A DNA stretch of 64,000 nucleotides from Apophysomyces variabilis (taxonomy: Eukaryota; Mucoromycota; Mucoromycetes; Mucorales; Mucoraceae). The stretch is from contig MZZL01000408.1 in assembly GCA_002749535.1 (NCBI GenBank), positions 124,001 through 188,000 of the forward strand, read 5' to 3'. Below, in pieces: positions 2,408-23,112 of the stretch. The notes under the pieces are model-generated. The model saw only the letters and a program-made list of their open reading frames with translations, ran no database searches and was not told where the DNA came from. Every line of letters starts with the position of its first letter. Within the stretch, counting starts at the first letter, position 1. The translations under genes were made by a program, and so were the position numbers.

Positions 2408-4559
2408 ATGAAATTCGGCGCGGAACTCAGCAGAAATATCTTCCCCCCGTGGCGCACATCGTATTTTCAGTATAATGAATTGAAGCATGATCTCAAACAG
2501 CGTCAGTTAGATCATGTCTGGAACGATAAGGATGAGCGAGATTTTCTAGATAAATTTCGTCGAGAGCTAGCCAAGGTCTATGGATTTGTGGATGAGAAAC
2601 TTCGTGATCTGAATCGACGAGTGGAGCAAAGCGACGTTATCATGCGCAGAATTGTTACCAGAGATACGCAGCAATATGACGCCGTTGCCGAGGCATTGAC
2701 AGAGACCCTTTTTGACGTGAATGACCTCGGTCGGTTTCATCAGTTGAATAGCAGAGGATTTGAAAAGATGGTGAAAAAACATGACCGATACACAAAGCGA
2801 AACATGCAAGGCGTGTACATTGACATGCTCAAAATTTACCCACTCGACAAGCTATCCCAGCCATTGGACAAGCTCATTGTTCAGATCTCCAGTCTTCACG
2901 ATCGCTGCCGACTCTATGGGCAATCGCGCGACAGTCAGGCCTATACGCAGGGTGGCCAACAAACGGCGTTCGAACGTGCAACATCCAAATACTGGGTGCA
3001 TCCCGACAATATCACCGAAGTAAAATCGATCATTCTCCTTCATCTGCCGGTACACGTGTATAACCAGAAAAAAGATTATGAAGCAGAGGATGCAGCGGTT
3101 TCCAGTGTCTATCTTGACAACAAGGATTTTCAGTTATACACCGCAAGGCTGGAACGGGCGGAGGGCGCACAGGCCATACGCATGCGATGGTACGGCCGTG
3201 GAGAGAATAATAATGTGTACATCGAGCGCAAGACGCACCATGCCGAATGGCTCAACGGGCATTCCGTCAAGGATCGCTTTCGCCTCAAAGAAGGCATGGT
3301 CAACGCCTTTCTCAACGGATCGTATTCTGCAGAAATCTATCGTCAGGATCTGATTCGCAAAGGCAAGATGGACGAGGTATCGGTCGGCAACCATCATTTT
3401 GTGGCCAAGGGGATTCAGGACCGTATCCAAGAAGGTCGATTAGCCCCCATGTGTCGGGTGTTCTATAACCGTACCGCTTTCCAGCTGCCGGGCGATCAGC
3501 GTCTGCGATTGAGCCTTGATTGCGACCTGACGTATATTCGTGAAGACGACCTCGATGGCAAACGACGACGGCAGCGGCGGGATGCAGCAACGGGTCGTGT
3601 TACAGACAATTGGCGCCGGACGGACATTGGCATCGATCATCCCTTCCGATCCGTAGAGCGGGACGATATTCTTCATTTTCCCTACGCTGTCTTGGAGACC
3701 AAGATTCAGAGCCATCTCGGGCAAGAGATGCCGGGTTGGCTAGCCACTCTGTTGAGCAGCCATCTTGTCCATGAGGTCCCACGGTTCTCCAAGTATCTCC
3801 ATGGGGCGTCTATGCTCTACAAAGTCCCGGTTGTGCCATGGTGGCTCAAAGAGCTGGAGATCGATATCCGTAAACCACCTGTACCGAACATCGGTCTCAG
3901 CCGATCTCTAAGTTATCGTCCACTTATCAACGGCCACCATCGCCAATCCTTATTCGATCCTCATGTCGCTATTCATCTGTTCGATCCTGCAGAGAAACGG
4001 AAACGATCCGATTTCTTTTCTCGCGTGTTCAGTCTTCGTTCCGAAAAAGCCTTGCCACCCTTAAGTCAGCCCAACGGCAAGGACGATGGTCTACCGCGCG
4101 GACGAAGCAATGTATCCATTGTCAGTAGGCAGTTCAAGCGAGCAGAACCAAAAACCTACTTTGCAAATGAGAGAACATTTATCAGTTGGTTGCAATTCTG
4201 CGCACTCTTATTAACAGTGGCACTGAATCTGCTGAATATGGGGGACTATATTTCGCGCATAATTGGAGCTGTCTTTATCATCATTTCATCCCTCTTGTCA
4301 TTGTAAGTTCAAATGTCTTGATCTATGCTTTTTTTTCATCCTGGCTTATTCCATCTTTTGTTTCGCTTTTCTATTCAGTTATGCACTCGGACGTTTCCAG
4401 GTCAGAGCATGGCAATTACGAACAGGACGCAATATTATTCGATACGACGACATCTATGGTCCTACTGTTCTCTGTATTTTAATGGTAACAGCTTTAGTTG
4501 TCAACTTTTACCTTCGCGCGCCAACATTTTCTTCTCCTGCTCAACAACATAACAAATAA
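2408..4559 (+). CDS. VTC polyphosphate polymerase subunit, Vtc4-like (copy A)
   Basis: Vacuolar transporter chaperone subunit of about 691 aa; exons 2408-4302 and 4379-4559. SPX domain at residues ~1-160 (start MKFGAELSRNIFPPWR; the basic KKHDRYT helix is the expected inositol-pyrophosphate contact). VTC catalytic tunnel at ~195-500. C-terminal DUF202 membrane domain with about three helices from ~595 ([18 protein letters not shown]). The Vtc4-type residues are present: [54 protein letters not shown] and [15 protein letters not shown], so it should be catalytically competent. Vtc4 makes polyphosphate from ATP at the vacuole/acidocalcisome membrane. The ATG sits at the SPX consensus start. First of three tandem same-strand paralogs. 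Whether it is orthologous to Vtc4 rather than to Vtc2/3 needs a tree. Confidence 0.93.
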
Positions 4560-5108
4560 ATCTTTCCTTTGTGTTTTCTTTACTAGAATAGTAATTATAT
4601 TTTTTCTAGGTTCTTTTCTGTCACACATTGCTTGTATAATGTATATAAACAGTTTTCTATTCGAGAGTCTTGAGTAGACTATGCTAGCGAAACGTGCATT
4701 GTGATGAACTAAGTGCGCCCTCTTTCGTGAGATTTGAGAAAGTTTTGTACGCTGATAAAAAAGATAACTGCATGTTAGCTGGATGAGAAGTTGGCGTATC
4801 AGTTATAGGCTATGCCACAGCATTATTTTAAAAGAGAGTCAATCTCTTATAGAGAGGGAGAAAAAGTAGTCATTTATGTGCATTGTCGTAATATGGCTTT
4901 CAGTTTCTTTTTTCCCCATTCAGTTAACCCCCTTCTCCATTTTGAAGGTTTCCCCTAAAGGTATGCAAAGATTTTCAACATCTCCTTTTTATACTGGATT
5001 GGGTCAAAAGCAATTTTTCCCCCACACACAAAGAGTTGAACAAAGCGCCCATACGCCCCATCTCTCTTCCTTTCTTTCTTTCTCTCTTTCTTTTTGCTTT
5101 TCTTTCGC
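4560..5108. other. Intergenic between VTC copies A and B
   Basis: No gene supported. T-rich downstream of copy A and pyrimidine-rich (CTTTCTTTCTCTC-type) directly upstream of copy B's ATG, a pattern shared with the copy C promoter. An AACGTG hexamer (reverse of CACGTT) lies near 4690. Confidence 0.5.
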
Positions 5109-7285
5109 ATGAAATTTGGTCAATATCTGAATCAGAATCTCTATGCCCCATGGCAGTCAAGTTACCTACAGTATGACAGGCTCAAATACGAATTGAGAAC
5201 ACGTCAGCTGGATCATCCATGGAATATGACAGATGAGTCGTACTTCACACAATGCATCCTGACAGAATTATCCAAGGTGGACGCGTTCATCGCAAGAAAA
5301 GTAGAGGAACTAAATAGCCGTATCCGACAAGAAGAACATCGTACGCTGCCAAACAGTATGAGAGGACGTGAGAGTTCGTTAGGTCGAACTTCTCCAGATG
5401 CATGGTTGTCGGCGATGTTAGATGATATTCATCGTCTGTCTTCTTTTATTCGACTCAACTGCACCGGATTTCAAAAGATACTGAAGAAACATGATAAATG
5501 GACGAACCTCGGACTGCAGCAATCCCTGGTTCCGCACTTCCAGGAATGTCGTCTCGATATCCAGCAGCTGGATCCATTATTGGCCAGGATAGCGCGTCTG
5601 CGCGAGCGCCATGGCCAACCGGCCACGGAGCAGCCGGACGTCACTCCGGACAAATCAGAAACCATCACAAAGACCTACTGGGTTCATCCCTGCCACCTCG
5701 CCGAAGTCAAAGCGGTCTTATTATTTCACTTACCTGTACGCCTATGCAAGAATACAATAACCACAAACGATGCAGCAGAAACTACTTTATCTACTATTTA
5801 TTTTGATAATCCTAATGACTTTGATCTTTATTTTGCCTGTCTACAACGTACGGAGGGTGCAGAATATATCCGGTTCGAATGGTATCTCTTCACCCTTTCC
5901 CTTTTGCACTCTTCAAACCAGATCACTCAAGCTATGTTATCTTTTTTGTATGTTTTTATGAAATCAAAAGGACGACTTCTTCTCAAGATCTCGAAGTTGT
6001 ACAAAGAGCCTTTCGGTCCTCCTCTTTGGATGAAACTGCTATCGTTTCTGTTGAAAATCGATTTAGACTGGATCCGAATCGGGTTGACGCCTTTATCACT
6101 GGCCAGCTGACTCCTGATCAGCTGGAAGCGGAGTTACGGGAGCGGGACGCGCCACAAGCAGTGGTTTTGAACACCGGGAAGACAGCTGAGGCTGTGCAAC
6201 GGTCGATCGGCCAGAAAAAATTGGAACCTGTTCTCCGCTGTGTACACCGTCGGATGGTGTTTGGAGAACACAGCCAGCTTCAGGTCTATCTGGATAGTGA
6301 TCTTAGGTTTATTCGTGAAGATAGCCTCCGAAAATGGCGGAGGCATTCGGGTCTTTGGCAGCGGGAAGATATACAGCCAATGAAGGAGGAAGAAACACAT
6401 GCAGCGGAAGATAATGAACAGAAAGACGAAGGGGGTGGAATGCAGAAAGCATCGTGTGGGTTTCCGTATGTAGTGCTTCAGGCAAACTTACCAAAACATC
6501 TGCCGATACCAGCGTGGCTGACCCAACTCGGTATCAGCCACCTTGTGCACGAGGTTCCACGATTTTCAAAATATATTCATGGTGCTTCGCAACTGCATCA
6601 GTTAGCACTTTTACCTTGGTGGCTGAGCGAATTGAAGACGGATCTTCAAAGAAAGTCAGGTCCGGAGAAAAAGGAAGAGCAGGAAGCAGAGAAAGAAACG
6701 GTTCTTCGACGGCAGAGTGGGCTGAGCAGTAGCCACGAGGGTGTTGGATCGTCCCCAGGAGAGGCGTCGGGTCGGAGGATGATATGGTCGGAAAAAAGTC
6801 AACCGAAAAACCGGAAGCAAAGATGGCCCTGGCTGCCCAGACGATGGGCCAAGAGAAAGAAGAATAACAAAGCACAAGAGATTCTTCCTTTGAGCAACAG
6901 CAAAGTCAAGATTGAACCAAAGACATATTTTGCCAATGAACGGACTTTTATCAGCTGGTTGCAATTCTGCGCCCTTCTGTTGACAGTGTCACTCAGCCTG
7001 CTGAACTTTGGTGACCACGTGTCCCGACTGGTCGGCGGATGCTTTATCGTGATTGCAGCTTTGTTGGCTATCTATGCTCTATGGCGGTATCAATACCGTG
7101 CCTGGCAAATCCGTACAAGGAGCACAGCTCGGTATGATGATCTCTATGGTCCCGCTGTTCTCTGTCTCATGCTACTGGTTGCTCTTATCGTGAATTTCTG
7201 TCTCCGTTTCCAACAACCCATACCAAACTCTCCTTCACCTTACGGATCCAATAACTCTTCTTCCTCATCTGCTTCCTTTGGTTAA
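5109..7285 (+). CDS. VTC subunit with degenerate catalytic domain (copy B, Vtc2/3-like?)
   Basis: About 695 aa; exons 5109-5881 and 5971-7285 (intron placed at the same W codon as the first intron of copy C). The ATG at 5109 matches the SPX start MKFGQYLNQNLYAPWQ. SPX at ~1-155 keeps the KKHDKWT basic helix, and the C-terminal DUF202 helices are intact ([19 protein letters not shown]). The central tunnel domain is recognisable but has lost catalytic positions: SKYWVHP becomes KTYWVHP, RWYG becomes EWTT, the ERKTH motif reads [16 protein letters not shown] reads HRRMVFGEHSQ, and the metal-ligand region PYAVLETK reads PYVVLQAN. The frame is open and the linkers normal, so this looks like a functional non-catalytic accessory subunit, the role Vtc2/Vtc3 play in yeast, rather than a pseudogene. 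It lacks the C-terminal intron of copies A and C. Confidence 0.88.
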
Positions 7286-8751: not shown

Positions 8752-11336
8752 ATGAAATACGGGCTTGAGTTACAAGAGAATATCTTCTCTCCATGGCGTC
8801 TATCCTATGTCGCCTATGATGTCCTGAAACAGGAGTTAAAGACACGCACAGTGGGACGATCCTGGACAGACAAAGATGAAGCAGACTTTGTCCATTTGTT
8901 AGATAATGAATTGACCAAGGTCTATGACTTTGTCAATGCTAAATTAGCAGAGATTGATGCTCGAATCCTGTACTGCGAACGCACCATACAGACCTTACAA
9001 CGCAATCCCACAATGAATTCCGACACAAACTACGGTATCATGGATGAGGCATTGACAGAGATCCTCTTCGATGTGAATGATCTCTCTCGCTTCACACGTG
9101 TCAATTTTACTGCTATTCAAAAGATCCTCAAGAAACACGATCGATGGACGGGTTTGGACTTGAAGCAACAGTATATCCAGAAATTAAGAGAAAAACCATT
9201 GGATAAGCAACGATTCGACGTTGCCATTGTCTATATTTCAGCCCTTCATGACATCTGCCGAAATCGAGGTCAGCGCTCACCCGGGAACAGTGCCTCGGGC
9301 GGCGATCAAAATGCGTTCGAACGTGCAACAGCAAAATACTGGGTACACCCCGACAACATCACCGAAGTCAAAGCCATCATCATGTTGCATTTACCTGTCC
9401 TGGTCTTTAACAAAAACAAAAAATGGGAACCCTCCGATTCTGCCATCTCCAGCGTCTACTTCGATAATGATAATTTTGACTTGTACACCGGCCGATTACA
9501 ACGTGACGAGGGCGCTGAAGCTATTCGGTTCAGATGGTAATACCTTCCTTTTCTTTCCCTGCATTGCCTTATCCGGAATACTCATCATAAATGGAATCTA
9601 GGTACGGTCCCTATGATACCAAGAACGCCTTTATTGAACGCAAAACACATCATGCGCATTGGTTGAACGGTGCATCCGTCAAGGATCGTTTCCGTGTCAA
9701 TGAATCAGATGTGAACCGATTTGTATCCGGACAATACACTGCTGAGCAGATCCGTAACGAACTCTTGGCAGACGGGATGGAACAAAGCGCAGTCAACGAT
9801 GTCCATTTTATTGCAGACGGTGTCCAAACCTCCTTCCGTGAAAAGGCGCTCCAACCCATATTGCGTGTGTTCTATAACCGAACCGCTTTCCAACTTCCGG
9901 ATGATCAAAAACTCAGAATCTCGCTTGACACAGATATGACCTTCATTCGTGAGGATCATCTGGATGGCCGCATCCGTCGTAATAACCCCCTTAACAACTG
10001 GCGAAGAACTGACGTGGGTATCGATCATCCATTCCATTATCTGCCAGAAGAAGAAATCCTGCGTTTCCCGTATGCCATTCTAGAGACCAAGCTTCAAACC
10101 CACTTAGGTCAGGCCCCGCCTCAATGGTTGACCAAGTTGGTCGAATCGCATTTGGTTCATGAAGTTCCCCGATTTTCCAAGTATCTCCACGGTGCCTGTC
10201 ACTTTTATCGAGAAAAACTGGCTCTCTTGCCATGGTGGTTATCGGAAATGAATGTGGATATCCGGAAGGCACGCCATGAGAATATTGGTTTGACCCGTTC
10301 CCGTTCGTTCAAGCCGCTGATTGATGGTCGTTATCGCCGTGCGATGATTGAGGAAAAGGAACGGGTTCGCCGTCAGTCCGTTGCGAACGGAATGCCAGGT
10401 GCCCCAGTGACCCCTACGCCAACCGAAGATGATCGTGGCAGCAGTAGCAGCAGTGGTAAAGGAGCGAATGATACCGTGGGATTGCTGACCAAGCGCAACG
10501 TGAATTCGATTGGCCATCAATTATATGATCCACCAGCACGAAGACGGTCTGAATCCATTGATGAACAGACGGCCGCCGCCTGGCGCCCGGTGACCAACCG
10601 CAAAGAATACTCGTCGATCGATCTCGGGCAATCCAACCATCATAGCGCGGCAGCACAACCGCTGTTACCCCAGAGCAACCGTGGTGTCCATGGCAACGAT
10701 ACCAGTGGGCCGATGTTCAATGGCAAACGAGCCTCGCAATCCTCCTTTTTACCTGTTCCCCTCGGGCACTTTTTCAGTAGCCGCGACGGCGGTCTTTCCG
10801 CTGCCTCCTCTATGGAGGATCTCCGAAGCAGGGACGGCAAGGGTGGCAAATCTGTAGATGACGACGACACCGCCAGCAAAAAGAGCAAGAAGAAGGTCAA
10901 GGTGGATCCAAAGACCTTCTTTGCCAACGAACGTACCTTTATCAGTTGGCTTCAGTTCTGTGCCCTGTTGCTCACCGTGGCACTGACGCTGCTTAACTTT
11001 GGTGACCAAACAGCACACATTGTTGGTGGTATCTTTATTGGTTTGGGTGCAGCCGTCGCCATCTATGCCCTCTACCGATTCGAGAAACGTGCTTGGTAAG
11101 AAAGAACAATCAACTGTGGGTAAAAACCGAACTCCGATTTACCTTTGTTTCTGATTAGGATGATCAATCGTCGTATTGATGGTCGTTATGATGACCTGTG
11201 GGGCCCCGCTATTCTTTGTGTGCTCTTGGTCGGTGCGCTTGTGGTAAGTTCTAATTGCTTCATTATGCCTCTTACAGATGGATTGACCTTTTTGTATGCA
11301 CTCTAGGTCAACTTTTATATGCGTTTCCGACCATAA
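8752..11336 (+). CDS. VTC polyphosphate polymerase subunit, Vtc4-like (copy C)
   Basis: About 797 aa; exons 8752-9536, 9602-11095, 11159-11243, 11307-11336, all in phase; the last exon codes only for [12 protein letters not shown] at ~1-165 ([23 protein letters not shown]). VTC tunnel at ~200-520 with [52 protein letters not shown] and [15 protein letters not shown], all catalytic-type positions. A long Ser/Gly/basic linker (~530-690) follows, then DUF202 helices from ~700 ([28 protein letters not shown]). It makes polyphosphate as part of the VTC complex. It is closer to copy A than to copy B by motif content; the longer linker is its main difference and could carry phosphorylation sites (inference). 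Confidence 0.92.
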
Positions 11337-13200: not shown

Positions 13201-15129
13201 AAAAGAAATACAAAAAACCATTTCCTTTTGTCTCACTTCCCTCATACGCATCCCTGCTAACCACGCGTTTTCTCTTATGTCTTAGCGATTATGCGTATTG
13301 TTTTTTGTATTGATACCTCTCAACACAGTGTTTCCCTCTTTCTCTTTTTTCTTCTTTGTTCTTTCTGTCTGCTATTGCAGTACGTCTAAGGTCGTTGATT
13401 CATATTGGGCCAATTGATTTGTCTTTTGGAGGTTCATAACATAATCATGTAAATCTGTTTAGATAACGACCCTATTTGCAGTACTTTTTTTTGAGGCAAA
13501 CCCAAAATATTCATCTGTCCCATTCATAGCAAGTGTATCTAGAGAAAAGTATGTAATATAAAGATTGCCTTTTGCTGTCCATGGGATAACCAAACTTTAT
13601 ATGCTATGCTTCCATGCAGCCCATTTTCTTTGTCATGGTAAACCGCGTTGCCAATCACAATGCTTGCAATAGAACGAGAGAAATTTGTTCATGGAGGATC
13701 TTTTTCTCCTTTTCACTTAAGCATAAACATCAAAGGGTTACCAATAGAATAAGGAGTATTACGCTATTTCGTTCTGTGAACTTCTCTTGGACCTATCTGA
13801 TATCTTAATATGAACCGATTATTATGGTAATTCTTGAAAGTTCATTCTTCAGCCCTTGGTTCCATGGTACCCGTCTGGACCAGCCGCATCTGTTTTCCGA
13901 CTTGACTGCTACTTAATCAAGTATTACAGTTGTATATTTGTTATTGTGTATTGATAACAAGTCGTTGCAACAGCCATGATTGTAGTATTAGTTCGGCTTC
14001 TCCTAATATTTCGTCCGCGGGTCTATGTCCGGACTAGACTTCTTTGTTTGTTGCTTTCCCTTAGAGTGGATAACGTTGAGTACATGACATTGGGACAGTC
14101 GAATGATCGGATGAGGATAGTCCCCGCGGCGCAAACTTTTGTATTTAACATCAAGCTTGATAAAGTTTACAGCTAGTACATTTGTTCGACCCCTAGTATA
14201 TCTCGGAGTAATATACTTCATTTTACGAGTTTAAAACTATAGAGGAAAACAAACAATGACTTCATGGTTACTACAGTAAGTGAAATCAGGGGCTAATGGA
14301 AAACCATGGAAACTTCAATATTTTTGTGTTGTTTTCTTGTGAATCTTGCCGAGCAGGTTTTCACATCTTTATGTATACGGACCATAATACCATTTATTTA
14401 ATGAGGGAAAAAGAAAGTAGAATATGTACATGCGTGGCAGAAGGAGTTGATATTCATGGATAAGTTGGTTATATACAAAAGGGATTGAGGTACGTTAATG
14501 TTGGTGGGATACTGCCGCTTATTCCATTGGATTTGTTTTTCCATCCTGAGGTCTTTTTGTACGTCGATCACGTCTGCGATTAGCGGCCGTATCCTTGATA
14601 CTTTGCTTCATGTCGTGCAAGATAGTTCTGATTTCATAAAGATGTGGATGTTTGCATGGGTCAAACGAAAATCGACGGTAGTTAGCGCGGGTTTCCGGGG
14701 TAACTCTGGTGGAAACGTTGGTATTCATGTTGCGTAGTGAGAGATAGTAGACAAAGAGAAAGATAGAGGATAAATGATTCAACTAGGGTTGGTTTTCCAA
14801 ACAGTTTTATATGTGATGGAAGAGATCTGCAATCATTTGAGTAAACTCCGCACTGGTAACCATAACCCATTGGAGAGTCTTGGCAATGAGCGCGATTTTC
14901 ACGATATTCATGCAACATGACGTAAAGAGCTCATTGGGAAGCCTGAGAGCGGAGTGTCGGAGATGATCGGCTCAACCACAGTAAGCTTGGCAACAGGCCA
15001 CTCATTATTTTGGTTGGGCAAAAAAGTGGGAATTTGAAGATATCATTGGATGAAAAAATAAGGTTCTGAGAGTTTGATTGGAAGAAAAAAGGGGATTGAT
15101 TGGATCAGAATGATCACTGTTGAGCTGAG
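13201..15129. other. Gene-poor intergenic region
   Basis: About 1.9 kb with no recognisable gene apart from one possible short minus-strand frame (14519-14728). No repeat or RNA structure stood out. Confidence 0.4.
14519..14728 (-). CDS. Possible small ORF, 69 aa
   Basis: Minus-strand frame starting MNTNVSTRVTPETRANYRRF and ending KRPQDGKTNPME. It is basic and hydrophilic, without low complexity, and its composition looks protein-like in an otherwise gene-poor stretch. Family not recognised; it could be chance or an exon of a longer gene (the frame stays open upstream through hydrophobic residues). Confidence 0.3.
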   Translation of the reverse strand: MNTNVSTRVTPETRANYRRFSFDPCKHPHLYEIRTILHDMKQSIKDTAANRRRDRRTKRPQDGKTNPME

Positions 15130-15146
15130 AGACAAATACAAAGCAA

Positions 15147-15633
15147 GCGAGGCCCACAGGGCCGAGCCAAGTTCTTGGAAAGACAGCCCACATGCACTCT
15201 TTTTCTGTTTCTTTTTGTTTTCAATGGCTGAAAGAAAGCGAGGCCCGAAGGGTCGAGCTGACTTCTTGCAAAGAAACGTGCATATGTGCACTGACATACA
15301 CACTCTGTCTTTTGCTTTTCAATTGCAAGGCCTGAAGGGGCTGCAATGAATTTTTGGAGGTACGTTACACGAGCGGTACTTCCGTCACACCTGTCATAAA
15401 CGCGCTGTAATTAGTCCACCAGTTTTTGTCTTGAGCCGAGTTTTTGGAGAGGCACTTATATACACACTATCTTTTTCGTTTTAATCGCTGCAAAGAAAGC
15501 GAGGCCCAAAGGGCCGAGTCTAATTCTTGGAGAGACACGTTCACCTACAGACATACACGCACGCATATTCACATATACACACCGTGTCTTTTTGTTAATC
15601 AGTGAAAGAAAGCGAGGCCCAAAGGGCTGAGCC
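15147..15633. repeat. Array of GGCCC-AAA-GGGCC hairpin repeats
   Basis: Five diverged copies of a ~22-nt unit of the form GCGAGGCCCAAAGGGCCGAG start at 15147, 15238, 15325 (most diverged), 15499 and 15612. Each core is an inverted repeat (GGCCC / GGGCC, 3-nt loop). Copies are embedded in longer similar units of about 90-170 nt carrying TTCTTGGAGAGACACG-like and [18 protein letters not shown] stretches. A sixth copy lies at 17054-17075, so the units flank the Helitron remnant on both sides. Irregular spacing and divergence argue against a CRISPR-like array. Confidence 0.8.
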
Positions 15634-15703
15634 TAATTCTTAGAGAGACGCATGCACATGTACGTACACTCTATATTTTTAATTTCTGATTTGTATTTAC
15701 CAG

Positions 15704-16660
15704 AACCTTCACGGCTTTGATCTGCATGCCCAGCAACAACGTCACTTTGCCGAGTTCCTTTTGAATGTTGGTGATGACCGTGTCCCACCAGGTATGTACT
15801 CTTCTATCATATGAATCTCATCATCTTCTCACTTATTTATGCAGTTCCAAATTCCGCTTATATTCCCCTCAACCCTCAGTGGTGCATACCCGGGTCAAAC
15901 GTCGATAACCTTATTGCCGCTATATACCACCCAGTACTCAATGCTATCCCTCCCATTGATACCCAACTTCTTACAGATCGTGCTATCCTCACACCGAAAA
16001 ATCACCACGTCGACATGATCAACAATATTATCACTAATTTATTCCCAAGAATGAGCCGCGCTTACAACAGCGTAGATTCTATTGTAGAACGCGAACATCA
16101 GAATCAAGTGCCTGTGGACTTTTTAAATTCACTATCATTTGCAGGTAACTTCTATCTACTGTTCACCAACCCCGGGCAATGAACCTTTTTTCTTAGCTCT
16201 TCCACCATATACCCTTAATCTCAAGGTCAACATGCTGATCATGCTCTTATGCAATATGGATCCCAAGGCTGGCCTTTGCAATGGCATGCGCTTGATTATT
16301 CGAGCTCTACATCCGCGAGTCATTGACGCTGAGATTGCTACTGGCAGATATGCAAGATCACAAGTTTCTATATCTCGAATCAAGCTCATTGTTTCTGATA
16401 CCAACTTGCCTTTCAGCATAGCAAGAAGACAGTTTCCAGTGAAGCCTGCATTCGCCATGACAATCAACAAAGCGCAAGGTCAGACCCTTAAACATGTTGG
16501 TTTATACCTCCCACAATCCGTGTTTTCTCATGGTCAGCTATATGTCGCTCTGTCAAGAGTGACTGAAGCCTTCAACTTGAGAATCATGTGTGAGTGGAAT
16601 GATACCCATCAACCTATCACCAAAAACGTTGTATATCATAATGCTTTCCCAGCATCGTAA
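15704..16660 (+). pseudogene. Helitron Pif1-like helicase, C-terminal fragment
   Basis: The last ~300 residues of a Helitron Rep-Hel helicase. Coding blocks 15704-15791, 15845-16144 and 16197-16660 splice in phase (introns 53 and 52 nt) into one reading frame: QQQRHFAEFLLNVGDD, PLNPQWCIPGSNVDNLI, a long insert, LPPYTLNLKVNMLIMLLCNMD, GLCNGMRLII, then the helicase motifs FAMTINKAQGQTL and GQLYVALSRVTEAFNLRI. These are the family's typical C-terminal motifs. The Rep HUH nuclease, Walker A and first helicase half are absent; immediately upstream are hairpin repeats instead. The preserved splice sites and frame suggest a fairly recent truncation. Helitrons move by rolling-circle transposition; this copy cannot do so alone. 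Confidence 0.85.
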
Positions 16661-16751
16661 AATAGGTTTTTTTGTACAACTATTATTCCCAGTTATCCCC
16701 AATTACACTATGCAGCACATAAATATACATCCAATTCCACTATTACTATAC

Positions 16752-16795
16752 CTGGGGGCTTCGCCCCCCAGAAGCGCGAAGCGCGAAACAGCTAG
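16752..16795 (+). mobile_element. Putative Helitron 3' terminus (hairpins + CTAG)
   Basis: About 90 bp after the helicase stop lies a strong hairpin (16752-16771, CTGGGGG...CCCCCAG). A second short hairpin (CGCG-AAG-CGCG, 16775-16785) follows, then six nt and CTAG at 16792-16795, followed by T. A GC hairpin shortly before CTRR, with T next to the end, is the known Helitron 3' signature. Confidence 0.7.
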
Positions 16796-19038
16796 TCACC
16801 CTTTCTCTATTAAAAGAAATAACTTTTGGTTACTCAGCTACGCATTCCCATTGGCTCAATGAACAGCTTTTACGCATTGTGATTGTTAGCTGGAAATTTA
16901 GTTGAGTTTTCCTGATTGAATGCTGGGATGCTGGGATATTTTTCTGCTCTCATCATTTGTGGGCGGTACATTCTGAGTATACGGAGTTTTCACTATATGC
17001 TCCGTTATTGCCGAGAAAATCAGTCAATTATCGCGTGGGACAGAATATACGAAGCGAGGCCCAAAGGGCCGAGCCAATGATTATCTTAGTCAAAGCAATT
17101 TGATAGTGCCGGGACTTGATTCACTGCATCCTTGGGGGTCCGGGGTCTCTCCGGGCTATACAGACACGAATACCTTGCTTATATGTTGAAGTACCAAGCT
17201 AAAGGCAAAGAAAGTGTAATTTTCGGATCTGATTTGATAAGCCTTAAAATCATCCTATCGGTAAAAAAGAATCTTTCAGTGTTCCTGAAAGCCACATTGT
17301 TATTGTTATCTTTTTTTTTTCGGATCTGCTTTCCTATACAGGTCTGCTTCTTATTTATCATTCCTGCAAACCTTAACAGTTGCTCTGAAGATAATTGAAC
17401 AATAATCTCTACGTGGATAATGTCCCTTCGTCACAACCAATAAGTATGGTTCGATTTCGACCAATCTTGGCTAGACATTCTTCAAAATCTGTGTGTCCTC
17501 ATATGGACCAGATACAATTCGTTAATCCTCATCAATACAATCCTTTGCAGCCCATAGTATCTGTATTCCTATGTATCGACTTCCTTCTATCCTTCCATGT
17601 CCAGCTTCTTTAGCGCATTACACCATTACATATTCATCATGTTTGCCTCCAAATGTCGTTCCATATCCATCCTTAGTACCTCCTGGTGCTATTTTATGTC
17701 CATGTTGTTTGATTCTCCCTTGCCATTGCATATCCACCACCCATGCATCGTATGACTCCTCGTATATCAACGGATTCTACAGCTGCATCTCGATCTTCCA
17801 TGCATTCGATTACACCATGCCTACCTGCTAATGTCCTGCCTGAGGTCTCTTCTAGACCAGTAATGTATGGCATTGCACTATGATAGCAGGATTCACTTGA
17901 AGTAGGGAAGATTCACTGAAAGTAGGAATGCTTAGTGATGTTTTCAAGGTCGTACGGAAGACCGCTTATTCATATGGCAAACAAAAAATTCAATTAACTG
18001 CAACCATCACTCCTTTCCTCTTCGATCTGAATTCGAGATGGGCATAAACTAAACTTGGTTCACCTCTACTCTTAATGGTACTATATACTCTCAGCGTCAG
18101 TGGGTAGCTACTGGTAGTAACCCCTTGCACAAGATAACCGATAAGCTAATGGTCACAGTTTACTTTGGCAAGCGGTAAGTAATGACGTTTGTAGTCTGTT
18201 CATACGAAAGGTAGTTGTCGAAATGATCGCGTAAGGCAATGGCACTGGTCAGAAAGCTTGAAAAGTGTATATGGTTTTGTAAAGACGGATTTTTTACAAC
18301 AAAAACGTTGAGGTAATGGCTAATTAATAGTTTCTATAAACTATAAGGGAAAAAAGAAAAGAAGAGAAATGGAGATTCTTTTGTAGGAAAGAAGGCCACG
18401 CAAGATAAAAGACAAAGACGACAACAAAGAAAAAAAAAAGAGTGGAAAACAAAAAACCAGAGGAAAAGCAGGGGAAAGAGTTTTGTATGATAAAATAAAA
18501 TGACTATACTAGAAAACTAGGGGCCTGATTTATCTTGCCATAAGGCCATGTAACATGGAAGCAGTAATTCAAATCGAGACTCTACACCAGTCCAGCTTGG
18601 TTTTTTAATCATATCTACTTCAATCATCCTCTCTGTTGCCAATGACCTCTTCTTCTTCAGTAATCATTCTCATCTGTAATTGGGAAGTTCAACTATTGAT
18701 TCGAAACTGCTGATCTTCCACATACGCAAAGCCCGCTGTCACTTTTCTGATATACTTGATTCCACAGAATAGCATGAAATAAAGATGGTCTAAAAGTAGC
18801 AACAGTTATCATCTGTCTCTCTTTATTATTACTATTTGATACACGTAATTCGATATTTTATAGACCTCACTGATCAATAGAGCGAGCATGGATGATGCAT
18901 GGATGACGCAGGGACATTGGTATATCAATTGTCGTCAAACATATTGCATTTACTAGAAAGCGTCACATCACGTAAAATCTTGATTCCTCTCTTGGTTTTT
19001 CGCTTCTTTCTTCCTTCTCTTTTTTTCCCACTCACTTT
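16796..19038. other. Gene-poor region between Helitron end and Fanzor gene
   Basis: Contains the isolated hairpin repeat at 17054. At about 17400-17830 there is a Ser/Thr/Pro-coding-like stretch split among frames (possibly a decayed gene, not recognised). At ~17890-17930 a short imperfect direct repeat of an ATTCACT..GAAGTAGG motif occurs. An A-rich tract lies around 18340-18500. No intact gene is seen. Confidence 0.4.
17054..17075. repeat. Isolated GGCCC-AAA-GGGCC hairpin repeat
   Basis: Perfect match to the consensus of the array at 15147-15633, on the other side of the Helitron fragment. Confidence 0.8.
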
Positions 19039-22000
19039 ATGGCTTCCCGCAACAAGAGAAAGAAAAAACCACAAGCATCTACGTCTGCAGATACGCAGTC
19101 GGATGATGATTTCCAACAACTTCTTCCACCCAAAGGAAAATTAAATATGAAAATGCAAATGACTGACTCCGAGCCAGGTACTGAACATTGAATGTTGTTT
19201 TGTGATTCTTAACTTGAAAATAGGCCCTTCAACCCTTCCCAGCTCAAGCATGGTCTCTACTCAGAATAATTCTTCCAAAGAAAAACCAAGAAGTTTGAAG
19301 GGAAAAGAAAAGGCCACGTTCGACTCCGATGATGATTTCCAACCGCTTCCTCCACCTAAAAGAAAACAAGTATGAAAAATCAAGCGAATGACTCGGAGCC
19401 AAGTACTGTATCTTAAAAATTTTAATTTTTTGGTCCTTAACTTGAACACAGCCCCTTCAGGTCATCCCAGCTCAAGTGCGGATTCCGTTCAGGACCCTTT
19501 GACAAGTAGCAAGTCAAAAGTGTTTCTTAAAGCCCAAAAAGCCTACGCAAAGCGGAGCGAAAAGTATGAGGCGAAAGCGAAATTGCAAGCGGAAAAAAAG
19601 AGTACAATGCTTGAATCTGGGAAAGAAATACGGTGCAGCACTTGCGGCAAGACAGATCATGAACGAAGCACAAGTAAGCTTTGCATGAATCCGACTGAGA
19701 AAAGGAAGGCTCCAAAAAATTTAAAACGAACCAACGTAATCAAGACGTCACTGATAAACACATGTCGATCAGTGAAGTTTGTAGAAGCAATTGAAGAAGT
19801 CGTCAAACACGTTCGGGATATTACCTATGCTGGATCGCTTCTCGCAAACTTCTTTTTTGTCAGGCTGTTATCTGAAAACCGTAGCATTCCACCGATCACT
19901 CATGATCTCTGTTACCGTTTATTTTCGTTGATTGCCGGTAAAGGGAAGTCCGCAGATGATGATCTCCAAGAAGTATACGCAAATTTCAAAACTTCGATTC
20001 CTTAGTTTGATGAAGAAAAGCTCAGATCGCAAGGGTATATGACAATAGTTTCTACCGCTGCAAAAGAGTACGAAGAATCGATCAAAAACCATATAACAGC
20101 CGATTTCGAACCGAAAACGATTCAATACCTTTTAGTGTGTATGTCTGATCAAGACGACAAACTTTTTCGATGGAAAGGATTGGTGAAAGACCGAAAGATT
20201 CTGGCAGAATTTATATACAAGCAGGCTTGCGGCACCGAGGCACGATGGCCTACAGCTATACCAGATAAGAAAGAAAATCGTGCGTACGTCGAGACTTGTG
20301 TAGAGTCTCTTAAAAATTTCATCGGTGTTATTTTCATTGACGAGGAGAAGCTAAACGCTGAACCACATCTGTTCTTTCCGTGGCTTTTTAAAGTACTTAG
20401 GCGACTGGAACAAAAAGTGTTTATCACAGAGACAACGTCCCAAAAATATGTATCCAGCGGATACGTACATCGAATGGTAAAAGAGGTAACTAAAACATAT
20501 TTGAGCTTCTATTGTCTAATTGTCATACAGATTCTTGGCGATGTAAACTTGCCAAAGCGTTTAACGAAGAGCCTAGAAGTTGCTGTCAGAATAGCTATCC
20601 GACGAAGAAAGGAACTGTTTCTCACAAAGAAGTTTGACCGTTTACCAAAGTCAGTGATATCGAAATTATAGAATTTCATCAAGGAAACGGGGAGGCTATT
20701 GACAATGGGACATTTAAACCAGAAAAATACACTGATCCCCGTGGCGCAAGAAGGTTCACAATGGCACCCGTGTATAACATGCAGATGCGTCATGTCACGA
20801 TTGATAACCAGGCGCTCGGCCGTCTGATGTGGAAAGCTGGTTTACGCTCCACCATGTCGCCTATCAAAGCCACGGAAGTCAGAAAAGAATACTTCCAACT
20901 ATTCGACATGTCAAAGATGGGTTATAAGACTCTGGAAAGTCTTGAAACGGAGAAAATTCTTTTCTGGTAAATCAATTAGTTGTGTATCACTCAGACGGCT
21001 CACAGTGATATTTAAGGGATAAAATACGAACGGATGCTACAGACGTCGAATTCATATTTAAAAAGTACAAGACTCCTTACGATCCAAAGAAGAAGCCTTT
21101 GACGCCTTCCGATATAAAAGGGAAGTACGAGGATGCGATTATCTGGGGTGTTGACCCGGGGGTATCAAGTATTTTCGTCGCCGCCGATGGGACAGGCACT
21201 TCTCAGCATCGTGTTCGTTCAACGACAACTGAAGAGTACTATTCTCTTTGTGGATTCAGTCATGCTACCAGGTCCCGAGAAAAATACGTGAAGGGCGATC
21301 CTGCTGTGAAGACTCTGATTGACAACATTCCATCGTTGAAGACGACAATCATGGAGAGCTTAATCACTGCCATCCGGTACTGTATGCAACATTATGAGCA
21401 TATTTCTGAATTTTTTAGCCGTGACCGAAGGTTAATCGTTTGTTAATTGTTTAATGTTTAATCGTATTAACATGTCGGCTTTGTTTTCAGATACAGCAAG
21501 TTGAAGTTCAAGTCTTATATCCAACGACAGAAAGGTCGAAGTGAAGTAGCCAACAGATTGCTGTACGGGAGCAAGAAGTATGATCAAAGCAGTAAGCAAA
21601 ATGAACCTAAGCGAGGTGATTCGAAATGGGTTCCTCTTTCTCCGAACGATCGATCTGACGAGAAGAGCAAACCGATCATTGTCGCCTATGGAAATGGAGG
21701 GTTTTCTGGCAGTATGAAAGGGCAAAAGGCTGCACCTACCAAGGCGGTTTTCAAGGAACTACAGCAACAAGCGAGGAGACGAAAGGTAGGCTATATAGTT
21801 ATCTCATGGGCTTATGGTTGACCATGGATGGGAAAAGGCTCCGACATTTGTATTTCTCATAGACGAATACCTCACATCCCAAATCTGTCCAGCATGTCAG
21901 ACTCGAGATCTGCAGAAAGCGAACGAAAATGATGCACAAGGCCACAAAGGCTCGACTATACATGCTGTACTGACATGTCAAAAAAAATCATGTACGGTGA

Positions 22001-22128
22001 TGTTCTGGAATCGAGACAAAATGGCTGCAACAAATATTTTACACGTATTTCTATATATGAGAGACCATAACAATGAACGCCCAGGCGCGTTCCGTAGGCC
22101 AAAGACAACGCACAGTATTCAGTTATAG
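19039..22128 (+). pseudogene. Fanzor (eukaryotic TnpB-like RNA-guided nuclease), interrupted
   Basis: Spliced gene whose C-terminal half has the whole Fanzor signature. RuvC-I is WGVDPGVSSIF (Asp codon 21153-21155); a middle block is AYGNGGFSGSMKG..APTK; RuvC-II is FLIDEYLTSQICPAC (Glu 21865-21867); a zinc ribbon CPAC...CQKKSC follows; RuvC-III is WNRDKMAATNI (Asp 22015-22017). Upstream is FTMAPVYNMQMRHVTIDNQALGRL. An N-terminal zinc knuckle (CSTCGKTDHERSTSKLC) precedes a helical region. Clean introns: 20967-21016, 21431-21490, 21786-21837. The start is 19039, or more likely 19372 (MKNQANDSEP), because the 5' end is an internal duplication. Lesions: in-frame TAG at 20003-20005, and a probable frameshift within ~20535-20670. 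Known Fanzors are guided by an RNA from the 3' flank (here ~22100 on). Catalytic residues are intact but the copy is probably inactive unless the two breaks are sequencing or splicing artefacts. Confidence 0.87.
19100..19500 (+). repeat. Internal duplication at the 5' end of the Fanzor gene
   Basis: The block coding SDDDFQQLLPPKGK ... MTDSEP plus its intron and the following PSSS exon start (about 19100-19260) recurs at about 19320-19490 as SDDDFQPLPPPKRK ... NDSEP. Both copies keep a GTACTG donor. The second copy is out of frame with the first, so translation probably starts at 19372 in copy two. Confidence 0.65.
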
Positions 22129-23112
22129 GATACTATTCCTTAACCTAGTTAATTATTACTAAAGCACTTAGCGCAAGGACCCTCACCTTCCTGAGATTTG
22201 ATAGATCGGTAAGATGAAACGGAAATAGCAGTAAGTAGAAAACTTCCTTGATACCGTTCATATACAGAAATACTAAAGGTGAGCGCCTAGTTGTTACACG
22301 TCCTACGATGCGAATTAAAAATGGTTCGGTCGGTATGAATGATAGGTTACATAATGAGATGGCGAAATGCTAGTTTTTCTGGAGACTTGTGCATACATCT
22401 TGCGGATCCTATCACAAGAATGAAGCGAGCATACCTATTACTTCCAGTCAGGCTACATAGATCGGTTAATCACAGTTGCTTGCAGCTGTCAGAATGAGAT
22501 TCGACATTTCAAGCAGTGTATTTGATGATCTGTCTGTCAGAGCTCGAGAATGGATCGCAGCAAGGCTACTGTTTACCGGCTATTCCATAAAGCAAAATAG
22601 CGATATGATGATGAAAAGAAACCTTTATCCGGACCTGATAAATATTTTTGTATCTCGCGTAAAACTATCAAAGCTATGCTGCTAATACAAACATTTTAAA
22701 TGACGCAAATTGCTCTCTAATATGAATTCCCCCATACCAGCAAAGTGATCCATATCATCCCATATGACTTTGTTTTGTCTTAACCTCCATCCACTTCTAG
22801 TACTGCGAACAGAGCAGATGACTTGGGAAGCACTGCACTAAAGCTGATCATTTTATAAAATCGGGTGCTTTTGCAAATACATGCATGTTGGATCATGTTA
22901 TGCATGCTCACGAGACCATCATCATCATGGAACGCCATTCAGCACTGCAGTAAGGCCTTGCTACTTTTTGTCTCTTTTTATGATTGAATAGAAGACAGTA
23001 TTTTATGGCATGATTTATAATTACATATCGCTTTGGAAAGAAGTAAATAATCGTAAAAACAAACAAAGGATTAACTGAACTAAGGTGAAAGAAGGTTTTG
23101 GTATCTACATTC
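22129..23112. other. Intergenic; candidate Fanzor guide-RNA region at its left end
   Basis: No gene supported. In described Fanzor loci the guide RNA overlaps or follows the gene's 3' end, so roughly 22100-22400 is where one would look. I see no clear terminal inverted repeat or target duplication here. AT-rich with CATCATCATC near 22915. Confidence 0.35.

Follow-up and report, generated by a model that had tools for sequence, protein, structure and literature searches.

A recently decayed Fanzor1 gene in a unit with Helitron-type ends from the mould Apophysomyces variabilis

Fanzor1 genes were reported in 2013 from CRe-1, CRe-2 and CRe-3, three Helitron2 elements of Chlamydomonas in which Bao and Jurka describe truncated copies with duplications beside full-length copies without them (PMC3627910). 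The same paper lists Fanzor1 families from Rhizopus, Phycomyces and Mucor (PMC3627910), and the occurrence of Helitron transposases together with Fanzor1 is mentioned in general terms in a further article (PMC10711439). Among the families from the Mucorales, ROr-4, PBl-3 and MCi-4 are of the MuDR type, with inverted repeats and 9-bp duplications, while MCi-2 of Mucor circinelloides is unclassified: its description gives 11-12 bp duplications and a partial Crypton gene, and no Helitron part (PMC3627910). A structure has been solved for one Fanzor1 of this order, PpFz1 of Parasitella parasitica (PDB 9cf0), which carries a cyclophilin-binding FRI domain and has the TAM ATN (PMC11423790). Our literature search found no paper on a Fanzor in Apophysomyces, and the parts of the Fanzor and Helitron literature that it covered hold no report of one in a fungal Helitron with canonical TC...CTRR ends. 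The initial annotation of the locus described here called Fanzor copies in this group little described, which is fair for Apophysomyces and less so for the Mucorales, given the families of 2013 (PMC3627910).

Here we describe a Fanzor gene copy from a 64,000-nucleotide stretch of A. variabilis DNA, hereafter the window. The genome to which it belongs comprises 126 contigs and 38.7 Mb. The gene copy lies at 19039-22128 within a unit at 16796-22148 (Table 1). Our preferred reading, with a probability of about 0.75, is that of a recently dead Fanzor1 gene copy carried as cargo by a non-autonomous Helitron. The gene itself is of a known kind, and dead; its carrier, with canonical Helitron ends in a mould, is a little unusual. 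As in CRe-1, 2 and 3, Fanzor1 would be the cargo of a non-autonomous Helitron that has its 5' end in common with a verified Helitron, and here too there are 5'-truncated copies that keep their 3' ends and duplications in some copies (PMC3627910). In contrast, the CRe elements are Helitron2, with hairpins at both ends and insertion after TTTT, and their 3' ends also resemble those of their Helitron, where the unit described here is alike in form only (PMC3627910). It has canonical TC...CTRR ends, one hairpin and, in two clean cases, insertion between A and T, followed by TTA. With MCi-2 it shares the fungal order Mucorales, a constant 3' part that holds the Fanzor gene and 5' parts that differ (PMC3627910). 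ROr-4, PBl-3 and MCi-4 are likewise Fanzor1 carriers of the Mucorales, but neither their inverted repeats nor their 9-bp duplications are present at the window copy (PMC3627910).

Table 1. Coordinates of the Fanzor gene, its carrier unit and the adjoining remnant in the window
Feature	Position	Strand	Basis
Upstream Helitron remnant: repeat-rich stretch, Pif1-helicase end 16127-16660, 3' hairpin and CTAG 16792-16795	15007..16795	+	profile and homology (see text)
Fanzor-carrying unit with Helitron-type ends TC...CTAG, 5,353 bp	16796..22148	+	ends common to copies
5' segment common to Rep/helicase Helitron	16796..17873	+	82% over 1,078 bp, C27; 82-83%, C79 and C93
Exon 1, ATG start	19039..19177	+	gene model; frame carried by six-copy alignment
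Exon 2; frame change near 19367	19224..19402	+	copy alignments
Exon 3, zinc knuckle; in-frame TAG 20003-20005	19452..20485	+	gene model, copy alignments
Exon 4; in-frame TAG 20669-20671 and frame change near 20691	20531..20966	+	copy alignments
Exon 5, RuvC-I, first catalytic D (GVDPG)	21017..21430	+	aligned to SpuFz1 D383, weak stretch
Exon 6	21491..21785	+	gene model, six-copy alignment
Exon 7: catalytic E (IDEYLTS), zinc ribbon, last D (NRD), TAG stop 22126-22128	21838..22128	+	PF07282; SpuFz1 E541, D606
3' hairpin, 7-bp stem, 7-nt loop, overlapping stop codon	22114..22134	+	pairing in 18 copies
CTAG end 22145-22148 and flanking TTA 22149-22151	22145..22151	+	TTA next in 22 of 23 copies

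The Fanzor gene and its breaks

The initial annotation had read from the sequence a spliced Fanzor gene with the RuvC D-E-D residues, a zinc ribbon and an N-terminal zinc knuckle, and these features were all recovered. The gene model has seven exons and six introns on the plus strand. The introns measure 46, 49, 45, 50, 60 and 52 nt in order, are all GT-AG and, as first described, are clean in the nuclease half. We aligned the gene with the five close copies L010 to L014 (n=6 with the window copy). All six introns are GT-AG in five of the six copies, the exception being L013, which has AT at intron 1. Under the gene model the alignment contains 2,793 coding columns, which divide evenly into codons, and all six copies have no stop in common other than the one at 22126-22128.

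Spliced exons 5-7 (21017-22128) match three molecules of the PDB at E values up to 1, and these are Fanzor1 only: SpuFz1 of Spizellomyces (4.2e-8), GtFz1 of Guillardia (3.7e-6) and PpFz1 of Parasitella (7.5e-4, a weak match overall). Single stretches are weaker alone: 8.6e-6 for Guillardia, 0.0016 for Parasitella and, for SpuFz1, 0.0014 for one stretch and 0.72 for the one that bears the first catalytic D. Residues of GVDPG, IDEYLTS and NRD align with D383, E541 and D606 of SpuFz1 (PDB chain numbers less a tag offset of 394), which coordinate magnesium ions in that enzyme (PMC10432273). The initial annotation was to be refuted if these exons lacked a significant Fanzor/TnpB hit or if the RuvC residues failed to align, and neither was the case. 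Neither exon 5 by itself nor the piece 20006-20668 gave a match in the PDB. The profile search proposed at the outset succeeded for the zinc ribbon, where the open frame 21799-22125, which holds the last exon, matches PF07282 above the Pfam cut-off (E 1.6e-6); the joined exons reach 24.7 bits, just under the cut-off of 26.3. It did not succeed for the NCBIfam TnpB model, with 16 bits against a required 100, and Pfam gave no match, or none above cut-off, for the remaining exon pieces. The published Fanzor1 motif, D-X(125,275)-[TS][TS]-X-X-[C4 zinc finger]-X(5,50)-RD (PMC3627910), can be followed by eye through the 333 residues of exons 5-7, as D47, T250-S251, C254 onward and R296-D297. By its sequence, then, the window gene is a Fanzor1. 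The N-terminal knuckle, C-x2-C-x4-H-x7-C, was also read by eye, and a young but distantly related Fanzor family in the genome has it in the same form.

Only two relatives, both from Rhizomucor pusillus and 45% identical, passed in a protein search of 4,383 candidates. One of them, VTP01DRAFT_6032 (hereafter P0001), is a relative in another genus with an annotated open frame; its identity is 45% across 86% of the region used for the search, and it has a zinc ribbon above the Pfam cut-off. Against the PDB it finds SpuFz1 alone, at E 0.96, and an AlphaFold model built from two sequences has a pLDDT of 33.7. A repeated DDDF motif in this protein is similar to a tandem duplication (about 76%) in the window gene, where the end of exon 1 with intron 1 (19099-19248) corresponds to the end of exon 2 with intron 2 (19325-19476). 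This duplication is also found in L010-L014.

The window copy has four breaks, a frame change near 19367, TAG stops at 20003-20005 and 20669-20671, and a frame change near 20691. It is a Fanzor pseudogene, since two stops and two frame changes interrupt it, and is no longer able to make a whole protein. Two breaks had been named originally. The TAG at 20003-20005 is present as described and, like the frame change near 19367, is seen in none of the seven copies aligned at its position. The second, a frame change placed at 20535-20670, had been put in the wrong position and lies near 20691; the gene model rejects a frame change inside that interval and gives instead an ordinary 45-nt intron (20486-20530), in-frame and found in six of six copies, and the TAG at 20669-20671. 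Introns of 11 or 19 nt in the same area were rejected by eye. The TAG at 20669-20671, absent from seven close copies and from seven of a second subfamily, had been overlooked, as had the frame change in exon 2. None of the other aligned copies has the frame change near 20691 in the same place, but L012 and L021 are short of one base close by and L046 has one extra, so this spot appears fragile in several copies. A 3-base in-frame deletion near 21924 is found in the window copy only, among six copies.

All six close copies compared, counting that of the window, are broken, mostly at differing places, and none of them has a whole Fanzor frame. L010 has three frame changes and one stop, L011 one frame change and three stops, and L014 five frame changes and two stops. 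In L012 there are six frame changes and no stop, one of the changes being a 101-base duplication around an N, and L013 has eight frame changes and five stops, plus a 1,207-base insertion. Some breaks are common to sisters, i.e. the stop at 20471 (L011, L013), the stop at 21904 (L011, L014) and the frame changes at 21312 and 21508, so either some copies descended from damaged ones or the same breaks arose twice.

Could these breaks be errors of assembly or sequencing, with the gene whole in the living fungus? Two of the four are single-base length differences, and some loci of the assembly contain runs of N, such as the one that the duplication in L012 surrounds. However, the other two breaks are stops made by single differing bases, the sisters in this assembly have their breaks at other places, and L013 contains large insertions, and dN/dS among the members of a recent burst of copies is near 1, which fits relaxed selection. 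We consider such errors quite improbable as an explanation.

The dN/dS values also bear on the age of the decay. Among L010, L011, L012 and L014, the recent burst, dN/dS is 0.65-1.20, and between the window copy and these four it is 0.44-0.59. The older copy L013 gives 0.33-0.42 against the other five. Eight loci belong to the comparison with the second subfamily (subfamily 2), which is about 68% identical in DNA to the window element; here dN is 0.20-0.32 and dS is saturated (computable for three of the eight, 2.4-3.0). Taken with the values of the burst, this indicates a protein that was conserved on a long branch and is now decaying. The decay is judged recent because the protein is strongly conserved between the two subfamilies, and the breaks are not common to the aligned copies, in agreement with the recent decay that the initial annotation had offered as one of two options.

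Its other option was expression by way of readthrough or alternative splicing, to which frameshifting may be added. Exons 5-7, the nuclease half, are unbroken with clean splice sites, and dN/dS between the window copy and its four sisters is below that among the sisters. Against this, each of the four breaks falls in an exon that all compared copies possess, the breaks themselves are not common, both stops and both frame changes would have to be bypassed, and the 45-nt intron is an ordinary one. With the sisters broken mostly elsewhere, the hypothesis is not needed, and we find it scarcely credible.

The carrier unit

The Helitron-type carrier and its many copies went unseen in the initial annotation. 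The search for sister copies that it had recommended found many of them. At its 5' end the unit has a sharp boundary at 16796, where TCACCCTTTCTCTATTA begins in L038, L040, L041 and L042 as well, and L045 joins one base in. From this first base the unit matches the C27 Helitron across 1,078 bp, with no match past that. The C27 Helitron is 6,115 bp long, starts with TCACCCTTTCTCTATTA (TC) and ends in a GC hairpin and TTAG, then T. Its sister at C79 (96% identical) ends in CTAG, then T, and encodes in separate frames a Helitron Rep (Helitron_like_N, PF14214, 2.6e-10, above cut-off) and a PIF1 helicase (1.2e-70).

Canonical Helitrons have a 3' hairpin, followed after 10-12 nt by CTRR. In the window unit the hairpin and CTAG are 10 nt apart. 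A 5' TC was found as well, and so was a Rep/Pif1 partner, whose 3' end is alike in form only. We thus regard the unit as built like a non-autonomous Helitron, because it joins a Helitron 5' kilobase to foreign cargo, a hairpin and CTAG.

A search with the 3' part of the gene returned 26 loci (29 rows, with three loci split), and 25 of the 26 reach the 3' end, 22 of them with alignments that stop within 5 bases of it and three by inspection (L020, L021, L024). The close copies end in ...CCTAG then TTA in 12 of 13 cases, the window copy included; L026 has CTTG then CAG. In subfamily 2 the end is CTTG (GTTG in L020) then TTA in all ten copies inspected, including the more distant L035, and this is an imperfect CTRR. 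Across both subfamilies, TTA follows the 3' end in 22 of the 23 copies inspected, a triplet that makes up 1.5% of those in the window and 5.3% of those that start with T. Before the last copy was added the count stood at 21 of 22, for which the binomial chance is below 1e-25 provided that each copy was inserted independently, which is suggested by the differences between their flanks. Helitrons need only a T after their end, and a fixed TTA is more than that.

The stem of the 3' hairpin pairs in 98.4% of 126 cells from 18 copies, and in 34-65% when slid by 1-3 columns. Letter shuffles nearly match the pairing (97.7%), and covariation in the stem is without support because the base changes sit on one side only. 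As DNA the hairpin is weak, with another fold preferred (z -1.22), and the RNA fold of the terminal 149 nt does not surpass that of shuffled sequences (z -0.18). It has the same form as the hairpin of the Rep Helitron and a different sequence.

Subfamily 2 starts with TCATAAT in L015, L016, L018 and L021. The 5' starts thus differ between the two subfamilies, both being TC, and the 3' end is of the same kind. Its 5' kilobase, used as a query, matched 17 stretches, the majority being Fanzor loci already known, and among those covered no Rep Helitron with the subfamily 2 start was identified.

Directly upstream of the window unit lies the remnant of another Helitron. It contains a Pif1_2B domain (PF21530, E 1.4e-10, above cut-off), its homology with C91 starts at 15007, and its stretch 15700-16651 has 69-70% nucleotide identity with the helicase end of the C27 and C79 Helitrons. 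Folded as DNA, 16735-16795 has a z of -2.19. A Helitron 3' part directly before the Fanzor unit is also present at C89 (95%) and C91 (83-84%). L015 and L016 have a common flank and are perhaps a single locus that was duplicated; by eye, the sequence before their TC resembles a Helitron end of the CTGG type.

Several other junctions were observed along the way. L039 and L052 (C122) are Helitrons placed head to tail, with a 3' end followed directly by a TCACCC-type 5' end. L036 (C108) has a reversed Helitron 3' fragment inside the 5' end of a Fanzor unit, by eye with some sequence loss. Repeats with the word CGAGGCCCAAAGGGCCGAG occur in the window at 15140-15660 and 17055, and at CGAGGCCCAAAGGGCCGAG the copies L014, L026 and L044 pass abruptly to 17052, as if recombined. 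A repeat of at least 355 bp, starting TGTGTTATATG and 97% identical between L024 (about 4435-4789) and L052, interrupts a Fanzor copy and a Helitron.

Insertion sites and possible roles of the nuclease

In subfamily 2, L018 and L021 have both ends present and sit between A and T, with plain flanks ending ATA and no duplication. L019, which lacks its first few bases, is flanked on either side by TTAAGCTTA(T), and this duplication of 9-10 bp starts with TTA. A duplication of this kind is a possible trace of a cut-and-paste element. At the window copy the 5' neighbour is the end of another Helitron. No exact target duplication of at least 8 bp was found at the window copy and six close copies, nor one of at least 6 bp at two further 5'-truncated copies. 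Among the matches listed (25 of 28 pairs) there are no terminal inverted repeats that join both ends; an inverted-repeat element as the carrier was ruled out on these pairs.

These sites bear on a different account of the unit, namely that it is an independent element, either of the MuDR type or of the kind of the unclassified MCi-2, which merely lies among Helitrons and obtained its 5' kilobase from a Helitron inserted in or beside it. A constant 3' end with 5' ends that differ by subfamily, as described for MCi-2 (PMC3627910), would suit such an element, as would the duplication at L019, a 3' hairpin unlike that of the Rep Helitron in sequence, and the search for a Rep Helitron with the subfamily 2 start, which yielded none in 17 stretches, mostly known Fanzor loci. 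However, both subfamilies start with TC, the listed pairs contain no terminal inverted repeats, L018 and L021 sit between A and T without duplication, and the match to the Helitron runs from the very first base. The account is unlikely in our judgement.

With the unit read as a non-autonomous Helitron, a mechanism can be sketched. A Rep/helicase acting in trans would have nicked the Fanzor unit, copied it and inserted it by rolling circle. Intact Fanzor copies may once have encoded an RNA-guided nuclease, by analogy with Fanzors tested elsewhere (PMC10432273, PMC11423790), and its guide RNA, by the same analogy, may have been drawn from the 3' end of the unit and the flanking DNA. Such a nuclease could have cut element-free sites and so favoured the spread of the element.

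A bolder idea, which we find attractive but doubtful, is that one short 3' end served as the stop-codon end of the Fanzor gene, as the guide-RNA scaffold and as the Helitron terminator. The guide would be read from the DNA behind the insertion, starting with TTA, and the TAM would be formed by the bases that precede the site of insertion, which are ATA in the two clean cases L018 and L021 (compare ATN for PpFz1). The element's own end, with CTAG or CTTG at the TAM position, would be spared from cutting. A rolling-circle element could in this way use the RNA-guided nuclease it carries to cut empty sites and to home. On this view the Fanzor 3' end must have acquired Helitron-type 5' ends of different origin on two or more occasions.

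Two subfamilies with different TC 5' ends and one kind of 3' end, together with a Rep/helicase partner for one of the two, make it testable whether the nuclease helps a rolling-circle element to retain or multiply its copies. The results also suggest that a Helitron reading is worth trying on unclassified families such as MCi-2.

Other Fanzor copies and neighbouring genes

Searching the genome with exon 5 gave at least 149 matched stretches (150 of 190 candidates scored), a figure in which some loci are split across several stretches and many matches are to distant Fanzor families. The sister copies are spread over many contigs, each decaying separately. One separate Fanzor1 family is apparently young: L061, L062 and L063 (C41, C93 and C89) are about 99% identical over 3.4-5.2 kb, with 99% identity across 5.2 kb between C41 and C93.

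Scans of the window for tRNAs and Rfam families found nothing, and neither did a search of phage records. Two tandem SPX/VTC-type genes lie on the plus strand of the window at 5040-7285 and 8752-11099, the first judged by eye, and a piece of the second (9591-11096) shares 98% identity with an Apophysomyces ossiformis protein.
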